From Halosegnis longus (GTDB lineage: Archaea; Halobacteriota; Halobacteria; Halobacteriales; Haloarculaceae), in assembly GCF_009663395.1 (NCBI RefSeq), contig NZ_QKNW01000001.1, forward strand, positions 1,736,001-1,800,000: a DNA stretch of 64,000 nucleotides, in the 5' to 3' direction. Numbering within the stretch: the stretch's first letter is position 1; every line of letters begins with the position of its first letter. Below the pieces are notes generated by a model. The model did not search any database. It was given only the letters and a program-made list of their open reading frames with translations, and was not told the origin of the DNA. The position numbers were made by a program, and so were the translations under genes. Shown here one piece after another: positions 19,889 through 25,049 of the stretch.

Positions 19889-20730
19889 TCGCCGACGAGC
19901 AACTCGACCCGCTCGCGCGTCTCGGCGTCGATGGCCTCGGTCGGCGTGTTGACGGCTCCCTCGACGGCGTGACCGCAGTCGCACTCGCGTTCCTCGGGCA
20001 TCGACTCGACGGCCTTCCGGATGGTCGATTTGATGAACTCCTCGTTGGCGGCGGCGTTGTCGAGCACCTCTTCGAGGGTGACCTCGGCGTCGTCTTTCCA
20101 CACGTCGTAGTCGGTGATGCCGGCGACGGTCGCATAACAGAGTTCGGCCTCGCGGGCGAGTTTGGCCTCCGGGATGGCGGTCATGCCGATAATCTCGAAG
20201 CCGGACGCGCGGAAGTGCTCGGACTCGGCCTTCGTGGAGTACTGTGGCCCCTCGATGCAGACGTAGGTGCCGTCCTCGACGACCTCAGCCTCGGAGGCGT
20301 CGCGGGCACTGTCCGCGAGATGCGATTTCATGTGCGGACAGTACGGCTGTGCGAACTCCATGTGGACGACACACCCCTCCTCGAAGAAGGAGTAGTGGCG
20401 GTTTCGCGTCCGGTCGAAAATCTGGTCCGGGACGACGAGCGTCTGTGGCTCCAGTTCCTCGCGCAGCGAGCCGACGGCGTTGGAGGCGAGCACGCGCTCG
20501 ACGCCCAGCGACTTCAGCGCGTAGATGTTCGCGCGGTATGGCGCGCTCGTGGGTGAGTACTCGTGGTCGCGACCGTGACGGGGGAGGAAGGCGACTTCGG
20601 TGCCGTCGGGCATCGAGCCGACCGTAATCGGTGCGGCGGGGTCGCCGTACGGCGTCGTCACGTCCTCCTCGTGGGTGTCTTCGAGCGGGAGCGAGTCGTA
20701 GATACCGGAGCCTCCGATGAAGCCAATCAT
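19879..20730 (-). CDS. mtnP: S-methyl-5'-thioadenosine phosphorylase
   Basis: The 283-residue enzyme cleaves methylthioadenosine with phosphate in methionine/polyamine salvage. It begins MIGFIGGSGIYDSLPLEDTH, the MTAP/PNP family start with the phosphate-binding GGSGIY, followed by LPRHGRDHEYSPTSAPYRANI, DQIFDRTRNRHYSFFEEG and the base-binding segment IEGPQYSTKAESEHFRASG with GMTAIPEAKLARE. Sequence cannot fully separate MTAP from related purine (or methylthioinosine) phosphorylases. The start at 20730 is chosen because the family N-terminus begins there. Confidence 0.9.
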   Translation of the reverse strand: MIGFIGGSGIYDSLPLEDTHEEDVTTPYGDPAAPITVGSMPDGTEVAFLPRHGRDHEYSPTSAPYRANIYALKSLGVERVLASNAVGSLREELEPQTLVVPDQIFDRTRNRHYSFFEEGCVVHMEFAQPYCPHMKSHLADSARDASEAEVVEDGTYVCIEGPQYSTKAESEHFRASGFEIIGMTAIPEAKLAREAELCYATVAGITDYDVWKDDAEVTLEEVLDNAAANEEFIKSTIRKAVESMPEERECDCGHAVEGAVNTPTEAIDAETRERVELLVGDYL

Positions 20731-20780
20731 ATCCGCGATTCGACGGTCACCGACAAAAACGGCCCTGTCTCGACCGAAGA

Positions 20781-20790
20781 CACTTATCAA
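20781..20790 (+). promoter_or_regulatory. TATA box of lipoprotein gene
   Basis: The sequence cacttatcaa is centred about 25 bases before the ATG at 20810. This implies a leaderless transcript and supports that start rather than an upstream in-frame ATG inside the region divergent from mtnP. Confidence 0.6.
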
Positions 20791-20809
20791 CTTAGCCGGG
20801 TGTTCTGGT

Positions 20810-21391
20810 ATGAATCGTCGCTGCTTCCTCGCTGCTGTCGTGGCCAGTGTACCGCTTGCCGGCTGTCTCGGCTCACGGTCGACGCCGGAGTTGGTCGAAG
20901 GTGGGACGACACGGGGTAGTGCTGCCGTCGCTGCCGCCGAGCGTACGGTCACGGACGCCCCCGGCTACGAGGACGGTATCGAGTACTTTCCGGACAACGA
21001 CACCGTTCGCTACGCGACGAGCACCAGCGGCGGTGAGCCGACCGACTACGAGACGCGTTCCGTCGCGGAGTGGAGTGACATTCAGAGCACGGAACTGGCG
21101 GCAGAACGCGTCGGAAAATCGGTTACGTCGGAACTCGATATCGACTCGCAAACCGGGTTCGGGACCCCTCCGGACAGCTACGACGGTGACGCCCGCGCGG
21201 TCGCGTTCGTGACGCTGACACAGACCCTCGACCGCGACGGACGACTCGTCGGTGACCCCGTCGAGGTGTCACTCGAAACTCTCGCCGAGGCCACGCCACG
21301 AGCTGTCGATACGACAATCAGGCTCGACGGAGCGACGTTCACGAGGACGGTCCCAGTGTTTGCACGCATCCTGACTCGGCGATACTCCTAA
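20810..21391 (+). CDS. Secreted lipoprotein of unknown function (Tat-type signal)
   Basis: The 193-residue protein starts MNRRCFLAAVVASVPLAGCL: twin arginines, a hydrophobic stretch and a lipobox (LAGC) whose cysteine becomes the lipid anchor. The mature part is beta-rich and polar, with no recognised domain; it contains EYFPDNDTVRYATSTSGGEP and VTLTQTLDRDGRLVGDPVEV. It is likely displayed on the outer face of the cell membrane. It is a single gene with its own TATA box and stops one base before the end of the convergent phosphoribosyltransferase gene. Confidence 0.75.
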   Translation: MNRRCFLAAVVASVPLAGCLGSRSTPELVEGGTTRGSAAVAAAERTVTDAPGYEDGIEYFPDNDTVRYATSTSGGEPTDYETRSVAEWSDIQSTELAAERVGKSVTSELDIDSQTGFGTPPDSYDGDARAVAFVTLTQTLDRDGRLVGDPVEVSLETLAEATPRAVDTTIRLDGATFTRTVPVFARILTRRYS

Positions 21392-21392
21392 C

Positions 21393-22085
21393 TCAGGCGA
21401 GTCGCCACTCGTCGCTCGCGGTGCGTTCGACTTCCCCGCGGCGCTCCATCTCGGCGAGCACCTCGCCCATCCGGTTCGGCTGGGCGATCTCCATCTCGAT
21501 GCGCTTGATGTCGTGGGCCTCTGCGAGCGCGTCGCGAATCTCGTCTTTGGTGAACGTCGCCCCCTCGGTCACCTCCATCGCGCCCGAAACGAGGTCGATC
21601 ATATCCTCGATGAAGTTCCACGGGTAGACGACCCACGTCCATTCGGCGAGCTTCTCACCGACGAAATCAGGCTGGAACTCGCTGGTGTCGAGCAGTTGGA
21701 GCGTCGCGGTTCGGACCTCGCCGGCGTCGCGGTCGGTAACGTACTCGTAGGCGCGCTCGATGCTGCCGCCGGTATCGGCGATGTCGTCGATGATGAGCAC
21801 GTCCTTCCCCTCGACACTCCCCTCGGGCATCGGGTACCGGACGCTCGCGCCGTCGGACTTCTGTGCCGTGCCGACGTAGTGTTCCATCTTCAGACTCGTC
21901 AGGTCGTCCAGCCCGAGGAAGTCACACAGACAGCGACCGGCGAACCAGCCGCCCCGCGCGAGCGCGACCACCACGTCCGGTTCGAACTCCGCGCGTTTCA
22001 CCTCGTTCGAAACCGTCCGACAGAGGTCGTAGATGTACTCCCAGTTGGTGACCGTGCAGTCGAAGTCCTCGGGAAGGTCGCTCAT
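21393..22085 (-). CDS. Purine-type phosphoribosyltransferase with C-terminal HTH-like domain
   Basis: The 230-residue protein has the type I PRTase fold: the PRPP-binding loop KDVLIIDDIADTGGS (Asp-Asp pair) and the flexible-loop region DVVVALARGGWFAGRCLCDFLG. It resembles GPT-like xanthine-guanine salvage enzymes, including the WVVYPW base-site segment. The last 70 residues form a helix-turn-helix-like module (FTKDEIRDALAEAHDIKRIE...MGEVLAEMERRGEVERT), so a regulatory or RNA/DNA contact is possible. The start at 22085 (MSDLPEDFDCTVTNWEYIY) is the family start. Confidence 0.85.
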   Translation of the reverse strand: MSDLPEDFDCTVTNWEYIYDLCRTVSNEVKRAEFEPDVVVALARGGWFAGRCLCDFLGLDDLTSLKMEHYVGTAQKSDGASVRYPMPEGSVEGKDVLIIDDIADTGGSIERAYEYVTDRDAGEVRTATLQLLDTSEFQPDFVGEKLAEWTWVVYPWNFIEDMIDLVSGAMEVTEGATFTKDEIRDALAEAHDIKRIEMEIAQPNRMGEVLAEMERRGEVERTASDEWRLA

Positions 22086-22168
22086 GCCCGCAGGTGGGAC
22101 GCGCCCGTGGTTAAATGTGGACGTTCGGGGGTCGAAACCCACATCTCCGTCCGTGGCGTCGACTCGGT

Positions 22169-22954
22169 ATGACAGACCCCTCGATTCTCGTGACGAACGA
22201 CGACGGTATCGACGCCCACGGCATCCGCGCGCTGGCCGACGCGCTCGAAGCCGTGGGAGACGTAACCGTCGTCGCCCCCGCCGACAACCAATCCTGGGCC
22301 GGCCGCGATATGACGTAGCACGCCGGTCCCACGGGTATCGAGGAGACCGACCGCGGCTACGCCGTCGAGGGAACGCCCTCCGACGCCGTCGCGGTCGCGA
22401 TTTCCGTCCTCGATATCGACCCCGACATCGTCGTCTCCGGCATCAACGACGGGATGAACCTCTCCGCACACATCCTCGAACGCTCGGGCACCGTCGGCGC
22501 GGCAATCGAGGCCGTCCACTTCGGACTGCCCGCCATCGCCGTCTCGACGGCAGACCACACCAGCCCCGAGCCACCCCATCCCGACCCCGACGCCTTCGAG
22601 ACGCCGGCCGAGGTCGCTGCGTTCGTCACCGAGCGCGTCCTCGCCGACGGACTCGGCGAGGCGGAGTATCTGAACGTGAACGTTCCCGCCTTCCCCGACG
22701 ACCCCGAGATTCACCGAACGCGACCCACCCGGGAGTACGCCATCGAGCACGCACCCACCGAAGAACAGGAGGAGGACGGCGTGGCGCTTCGCGACCCCGG
22801 CTGGCAGCAGTTTCTCACCGGCGAGTCCATCGACGCGCCCGAGACCGACCGTCACGCCGTCCTCGACGGCAACGTGAGCGTGACGCCGATGCGGCTCCCG
22901 CGGGCCGTCGAGACCGACGCGGACTTTTCTGGGTTCGACCACCACCCAGCATAA
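22169..22954 (+). pseudogene. surE: surE (5'/3'-nucleotidase) interrupted by an in-frame TAG at codon 50
   Basis: One frame runs from the ATG at 22169 to the stop at 22952-22954 and encodes a complete 261-residue SurE, except for a TAG at 22316-22318. Before it are the metal-binding Asp pair in [12 protein letters not shown] and the serine of [10 protein letters not shown]. After it, in the same frame, come GYAVEGTPSDAVAVA and the SGINDGMN motif, then a normal remainder ending DFSGFDHHPA. No frameshift is seen and the codons after the stop look like ordinary coding sequence. A single C to T change (CAG to TAG) would explain it. Many nearby genes end with TAG, so TAG is a genuine stop here. 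Unless read through, the 49-residue product cannot be active. Confidence 0.85.
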
Positions 22955-22980
22955 TGTAGGTTGCTTTCGACGCCGGAGAT

Positions 22981-24294
22981 ATGAGCGACGACGGACGACT
23001 CGGCTTGGTCGGTGCTGCCTCGATTGCGCTCGGTGGGATGATCGGCGGCGGCGTCTTCGCCGTCCTCGGTGTTGTTGCACAGATCGCCGGCGCGGCCGCG
23101 TGGCTCTCCTTTTCGGGTGCCTGTCTCGTCTCCGCCGCGGCGGCCTACTCGTATCTCCGGCTCAACGACCTGAGCGACCGCCGCGGCGGCTCGGTCACGC
23201 AGATCCAGGCGTTCACCGGCAACGGAGCCGTCGCGGGCGTCGTCGGCTGGACGCTCCTGTTCGGCTACCTGGGCGCGATTGCGATGTACGCGTTCGCGTT
23301 CGGGAGCTTCGCCGTCGAACTGCTGGGCACGACACACCCGCTCGCACGCCCCGTGGCCTCCGTCGTCGGTATCGGGCTGTTCGTCGGACTGAACGTCCTC
23401 GGGACGCGCGCGTCCGGCATCTCGGAGACGGCGCTCGTCGCCGTGAAGCTGCTCGTGTTGCTCGTGTTCGGGCTCTGGGGATTCTACTACGGGAACCGGA
23501 CGGGGAGTCTCGACTTCGGTCTCGGCCGGCTCACCTCCGTCGGGCCGTACTACGCCCTCGCCGTCTCGTTCGTCTCGTTTCAGGGGTGGCAACTGCTCAT
23601 GTACGACCAGGAGGCGATCGCGAACCCGCGCGAGATACTGCCGAAGGCAATCTATCTCTCTATCGCGGTCACCGTCGTCGTGGACGGGCTCATCGCTATC
23701 GTCGTCACGTCGCTCGCCCCGACGGAGGTGATTCTCCAGAATCCGGAGACCGCCCTCGCCGTCGCCGCCGAGCCGTTCATGGGACAGGTCGGCTTCACGC
23801 TCGTCTCCGCGGCGGCCATCTTCTCGACCGGCTCTGCCGTCAACGGGACGCTGTTCTCGGCGGCGTACTTCACCAAGGGAATGATCGGTGACGGGCTGTT
23901 TCCCGACGCGGTCGGCCGGGCCGGCACTGACGGCGTCCCGACGCGGACCGTCGTCGTGCTCGGAACCGTCGCCGCCGGCTTCGCCGCCGTCGGCTCGCTG
24001 CAAGGGATTACCTCCTTCGGCTCGCTGGCGTTCATGGCCGTCTTCGGCGCGATGAGTTATCTTGCCTTCCGCGAGCGCGACGGGTACGTCTCGACGCTCG
24101 TCCCCGCCGTCGGCGTCGTCGGGACGAGCATCCTCTTTCCCGTCTTGCTCTACCACCTCGCGACGAACGAGCCGGGAACGTTCACGACGGTCGTCTTGGC
24201 GGCCGTCGCGGTCGTTTCTCTCGAACTACTCTACTTCGAGCGCGAGACCATCCGCGACGGATTCCACGCGGTCGAGGAGCGCATCGAGTCTTAA
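22981..24294 (+). CDS. APC-superfamily amino acid permease
   Basis: The 437-residue membrane protein starts with the APC signature IALGGMIGGGVFAVLGVVAQIAG (substrate-binding helix 1 with its Gly-rich break) and shows about 12 hydrophobic helices. Helix 6 includes FVSFQGWQLLMYDQEAIANP, typical of the family. It probably imports an amino acid by proton or sodium symport; substrate unknown. It follows surE by 26 bases. Its TAA stop lies inside a TTAA shared with the stop of the convergent gene. Confidence 0.88.
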   Translation: MSDDGRLGLVGAASIALGGMIGGGVFAVLGVVAQIAGAAAWLSFSGACLVSAAAAYSYLRLNDLSDRRGGSVTQIQAFTGNGAVAGVVGWTLLFGYLGAIAMYAFAFGSFAVELLGTTHPLARPVASVVGIGLFVGLNVLGTRASGISETALVAVKLLVLLVFGLWGFYYGNRTGSLDFGLGRLTSVGPYYALAVSFVSFQGWQLLMYDQEAIANPREILPKAIYLSIAVTVVVDGLIAIVVTSLAPTEVILQNPETALAVAAEPFMGQVGFTLVSAAAIFSTGSAVNGTLFSAAYFTKGMIGDGLFPDAVGRAGTDGVPTRTVVVLGTVAAGFAAVGSLQGITSFGSLAFMAVFGAMSYLAFRERDGYVSTLVPAVGVVGTSILFPVLLYHLATNEPGTFTTVVLAAVAVVSLELLYFERETIRDGFHAVEERIES

Positions 24295-25049
24295 TCCCAC
24301 GCGAGCGTGACCTGCTCGCCCGTGGTGACGCCGAACTGCTCGTCGCCGCGCCCCTGATTCACGGCCAACTCCACTCGCTCGTGGCTGCCCACCGTGACGA
24401 GGGCCGTCCCGGCATCGGCGCGGGCGTAGGCGGGGACCACGGGGTACTCCCGACCGCCGACGCGGATTTGCTCGCGGCCGTCGAGCAGGTCGCCGGGCAG
24501 ATTCGTCACGACGTTTCCGAAACCGTCGACCGCGAGCACCTCGCCGGTCGCGCCGTCGTCGCGAATCGTCGGCTCCGGCAGTCGAAACGCCTCGTACTCG
24601 CGGGTGCGGACGAGCGCGGGGAGTCGGTCGAGGTCCGCGACGCCGACCTCGTGGCAGTCGGCGGCGACGGGCGCGAACACGTCGCGCCCGTGGAAGGTGT
24701 TGCTCGCCGGGTCCTCGACGCGGACGGCGAACACCTCGATGTCGTCGCCGTCGGCGAGCGCCCGCGCCGGGGGCAAGAGGAGGCCGTTGTCCGGCCCGAC
24801 GAGTGCGTGGTCGCCGGCGCGGACGACGAGCGCCTGTCTGTCGGTGCCGACGCCGGGGTCGATGACCGCACAGTGAACCGCGGGTGGAAACTCCGGCAGG
24901 ACGAAGCGGAGCCAGAAGGCCGCCTCGCGTGGTGCCTGTCGGGAGAAGTCGTGGCCGATGTCGACCGTGTCGGCGTCCGTGCGACGCGCGATGACGCCCT
25001 TCATCGCGGCGGGGTACGGCTCGCCGAAGTCGGTTGCGAGGGTAATCAC
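24291..25049 (-). CDS. SAM hydroxide adenosyltransferase (SAM hydrolase, DUF62)
   Basis: The 252-residue protein begins VITLATDFGEPYPAAMKGVI and has the family residues in IDPGVGTDRQALVV, GPDNGLL and SNTFHGRDVFAPVAA. The C-terminal domain contains VDGFGNVVTNLPGDLL. Members hydrolyse S-adenosylmethionine to adenosine and methionine; relatives include fluorinases and chlorinases, but the halogenase-specific features are not evident. The GTG start at 25049 overlaps the nadM stop as GTGA. Coupling to NadM places it with adenosine-nucleotide metabolism. Confidence 0.9.
   Translation of the reverse strand: MITLATDFGEPYPAAMKGVIARRTDADTVDIGHDFSRQAPREAAFWLRFVLPEFPPAVHCAVIDPGVGTDRQALVVRAGDHALVGPDNGLLLPPARALADGDDIEVFAVRVEDPASNTFHGRDVFAPVAADCHEVGVADLDRLPALVRTREYEAFRLPEPTIRDDGATGEVLAVDGFGNVVTNLPGDLLDGREQIRVGGREYPVVPAYARADAGTALVTVGSHERVELAVNQGRGDEQFGVTTGEQVTLAWD

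Follow-up and report, generated by a model that had tools for sequence, protein, structure and literature searches.

Does an in-frame TAG at codon 50 of an otherwise intact haloarchaeal surE mark the loss of the gene, an error in its sequence or a regulated readthrough event? The stretch of DNA analysed here (the window, 64,000 nucleotides) comes from a genome of 2.77 Mb in 3 contigs that is 99.85% complete, and the features of the locus are collected in Table 1. Within the surE frame the TAG is the sole internal stop, the terminal stop being the TAA at 22952-22954. With the TAG read as X, the translation matched the Pfam SurE family (PF01975) with 170.9 bits (cut-off 22.1, E 3e-50) and the NCBIfam surE model (TIGR00087) with 173.8 bits (cut-off 135.1), that is, at full length and above both curated cut-offs of this 5'/3'-nucleotidase family. 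The frame was accepted as real because the 49 residues before the TAG and the 166 residues from codon 96 matched the SurE profile separately and in the correct order. GC content at codon positions 1, 2 and 3 was 0.74, 0.47 and 0.86, with composition and frame unchanged past the TAG, and the active-site motifs TNDDG, NQS and SGIND were all located in the alignment (DDG, NQS and SG-x-N in the family). The preliminary description of this locus, which had reported an otherwise intact surE with one frame on either side of the stop and all SurE motifs present, was therefore accurate in these respects. The gene is unlike other family members in its one interrupting stop: a SurE nucleotidase is encoded as a single protein, and here the TAG breaks it at codon 50. 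A 49-residue product would retain the N-terminal Asp-Asp and Asn-Gln-Ser and would be without Ser-Gly-x-Asn and most of the fold, and a product starting at codon 96 would be without the N-terminal metal/phosphate-site motifs. By these matches the interrupted gene is a SurE member by descent, the predicted product of which is not an intact SurE.

Table 1. Coordinates of the interrupted surE and its neighbours in the window.
Feature	Position	Strand	Remarks
Accessory surE paralogue	22169..22954	+	261 codons plus TAA; one in-frame stop; profile matches and orthologues
TAG, codon 50	22316..22318	+	TGG (Trp) in 4/4 same-genus orthologues; single G to A at 22317
Truncated product if the TAG terminates	22169..22318	+	49 residues
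First in-frame start past the stop (ATG, codon 96)	22454..22954	+	would give a 166-residue product
Phosphoribosyltransferase (apt/hpt-like), divergent neighbour	21393..22142	-	Pfam PF00156
APC-family permease, downstream neighbour	22981..24294	+	intact here, decayed in G002, absent at the site in G003

Orthologues of the interrupted gene, 70-95% identical, were found in four of the five other congeneric species examined (G001, G002, G004 and G005), and in all four codon 50 is TGG, lying within a stretch of 11 residues. CAG, suggested earlier as the original codon, was thus incorrect. As read from this alignment, the stop is one G to A transition, from Trp to stop, and is private to the source genome because all four congeneric orthologues read TGG; the disrupting mutation is missing from the close relatives, as in a recent pseudogene. 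That the stop is TAG is unsurprising, since 30 of the 47 one-step mutational routes to a stop in this gene give TAG.

The age of the stop was assessed from the substitutions that surround it. Between the window gene and its closest relative, that of G002, dN was 0.020 and dS 0.36, and the region past the TAG taken separately gave 0.016 and 0.34, in agreement with the earlier remark that the downstream codons look normally selected. When changes were polarised with G004, the window branch carried 5 nonsynonymous (stop excluded) and 23 synonymous changes and the G002 branch 6 and 20, and all length differences between the two genes were of whole codons. A wholly unconstrained window branch would be expected to carry approximately 67 nonsynonymous changes, compared with the 5 observed, and a neutral phase of more than approximately 15% of that branch is unlikely (P ~0.01). 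These values indicate strong purifying selection on surE around the stop, and the window branch has not gathered more amino-acid changes than usual; the stop is therefore either very young or a sequence error.

A second, intact SurE is encoded in the same genome at G000:C1:21166-21729, bearing out the earlier guess that a paralogue might be present elsewhere. A tree was built from 36 haloarchaeal SurE proteins, which were those fetched and do not comprise every second copy. In this tree the intact copy groups with the widespread haloarchaeal SurE, while the window copy falls in a separate, patchily distributed clade comprising 10 rows and four genera. The accessory clade, including the window copy, carries a motif of 11 residues, and the core haloarchaeal SurE carries DQSAVGR.

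The surroundings of the gene vary within the genus. In G003, the counterpart of window positions 22129-24308 is a clean empty site (L219:5366-5413, on G003:C16), in which the phosphoribosyltransferase is followed by approximately 50 bases and then by sequence matching the window from 24309 onward, so that approximately 2.2 kb (surE and the permease) are missing before a SAM hydroxide adenosyltransferase-like gene. The G003 genome, which is approximately 90% complete, yielded a single SurE, and this belongs to the core type. In G002 surE is intact and the adjoining permease is decayed (L032:3839-4972, equivalent to G002:C6:353838-354968), having lost 54 codons to a deletion and carrying two stops, a TGA early in the frame and a TAG late in it. 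In G004 surE and the permease lie together approximately 100 kb from the phosphoribosyltransferase, and the orientation of the permease is reversed. In these comparisons the pair has the character of accessory DNA that a genome can dispense with, and within one haloarchaeal genus it appears to have been lost in different ways: by a stop in surE here, by decay of the permease in G002 and by absence of both genes from the site in G003. Approximately 620 bases separating the phosphoribosyltransferase from an MTAP-like gene (window 20770-21391) are also missing in G002 and G003, and a possible lipoprotein ORF (20717-21391) lies within this missing stretch.

The preliminary description had left three options: a very recent nonsense mutation, a sequence error or regulated readthrough. 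Five observations made directly on the sequences bear on the choice: the stop is present, it is private to this genome, the gene around it has been under purifying selection, a second copy is intact, and one congener has an empty site. The first two options are favoured because codon 50 is TGG in four congeners, selection has been strongly purifying with no relaxed branch, a second surE is intact and G003 has an empty site; the third found no support. The best explanation, which we consider probable, is that a nonsense mutation has recently inactivated an accessory surE paralogue with which the organism can dispense. The haloarchaeon possesses two surE genes, the window copy being the accessory paralogue beside an amino-acid-type permease, and under this explanation a recent G to A transition would have turned Trp50 (TGG) into TAG. 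Translation would be expected to stop after 49 residues, ahead of the second half of the active site, and for this reason the window copy is probably inactive. The intact core SurE presumably covers any shared 5'/3'-nucleotidase function, and given such redundancy the mutation would be tolerated as the early decay of a dispensable gene. The window surE resembles the recent nonsense pseudogenes of prokaryotic paralogues in its private nonsense mutation, in the lack of other damage, in the intact paralogue elsewhere and in the absence of the gene from a congener, and no notable difference from them was seen. The case is an ordinary one of early gene loss (or a sequencing misread) and not a special decoding signal. 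Annotators would do best to flag the locus as a probable pseudogene or as a site that needs checking, and a recoded gene would be the wrong label; the case has little import beyond this.

The main rival to nonsense inactivation is a sequencing or assembly error, in which case the organism really has TGG at codon 50 and two intact SurE proteins. We regard this as a serious possibility, though clearly the less probable one. The stop is a single substitution in one assembly of one strain of the species, and selection is not relaxed elsewhere in surE, as an error would equally leave the gene conserved up to the present. Among the SurE matches listed from a scan of genome contigs, which were mainly bacterial, no copy from the same species appeared. 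However, the assembly is good, as its contig number and completeness attest, and in most assemblies indel errors are commoner than substitution errors. Gene damage was also compared between 404 kb of the source genome and 450 kb of G002. A handful of other in-frame stops was found in each, several of them at Trp codons, which speaks for the nonsense reading; the numbers of disrupted genes are to be read as maxima, because the mechanical ORF comparison lists antisense ORFs and over-extended starts. When the listed cases were judged by reading, no clearly real gene besides surE was broken in the 64-kb window relative to G002, and there is therefore no general error problem in this region.

Readthrough of the TAG, whether regulated or constitutive, with a full-length protein from the window copy as its result, would fit a gene that is otherwise intact and conserved, but it is very improbable on several grounds. 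Among the 43 tRNA genes found in the genome (42 with Rfam and an intron-bearing tRNA-Trp by pattern) none had a CUA anticodon, and the tRNA-Trp has a normal CCA anticodon, for which reason a suppressor tRNA-Trp was rejected. A tRNA-Stop (tta) reported by ARAGORN proved to be a misreading of a 106-base tRNA gene that contains an intron and has TTG in the region of its anticodon; this gene is probably a tRNA-Gln. The pylS profile gave only weak matches in the genome, scoring approximately 22 bits where the cut-off is 178; most control genomes also gave weak matches and only one control passed the cut-off. TAG is an ordinary terminator: of the ORFs predicted in the window it ends 20 of 54, and of those in 404 kb it ends 98 of 307. 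The stop occurs in none of the four congeners, unlike a conserved recoding site. The likeness to the pyrrolysine recoding of UAG in Methanosarcina is confined to the UAG that interrupts an archaeal gene intact in all other respects, whereas the present genome differs in having neither pylS nor a CUA tRNA among the tRNA genes found, and in a UAG that is unconserved and undepleted as a terminator. Pyrrolysine or other UAG recoding is thereby rejected, as the preliminary description had anticipated for pyrrolysine. According to PMC8037382 (2021), archaeal readthrough has been established unequivocally only for selenocysteine and pyrrolysine (see also the review PMC8211752). More doubtful still is the idea that the TAG is real and that a near-cognate tRNA decodes it at low frequency, which would be a natural means of keeping the accessory SurE down in this haloarchaeon. 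Hardly credible at all is that surE now functions as two separate pieces, the second translated by reinitiation past the TAG. An in-frame ATG exists at codon 96, but this ATG lies 46 codons downstream of the stop, the second piece would be without the N-terminal DDG and NQS of what is a single catalytic domain, and none of the relatives examined has a split form.

Single stops of a similar kind were seen at other loci. Outside the window, a metallo-beta-lactamase-domain ORF (G000:C1:1656024-1657438) has TAG at codon 172 where G002 has TAC, and may be another gene broken by a single stop, or else two genes side by side. In G002, the counterparts of L184:3321-4451 (a LEA_2-domain gene) and L179:1837-3564 (a DUF3604 gene) each carry a TGG to TAG change and may be recent pseudogenes.
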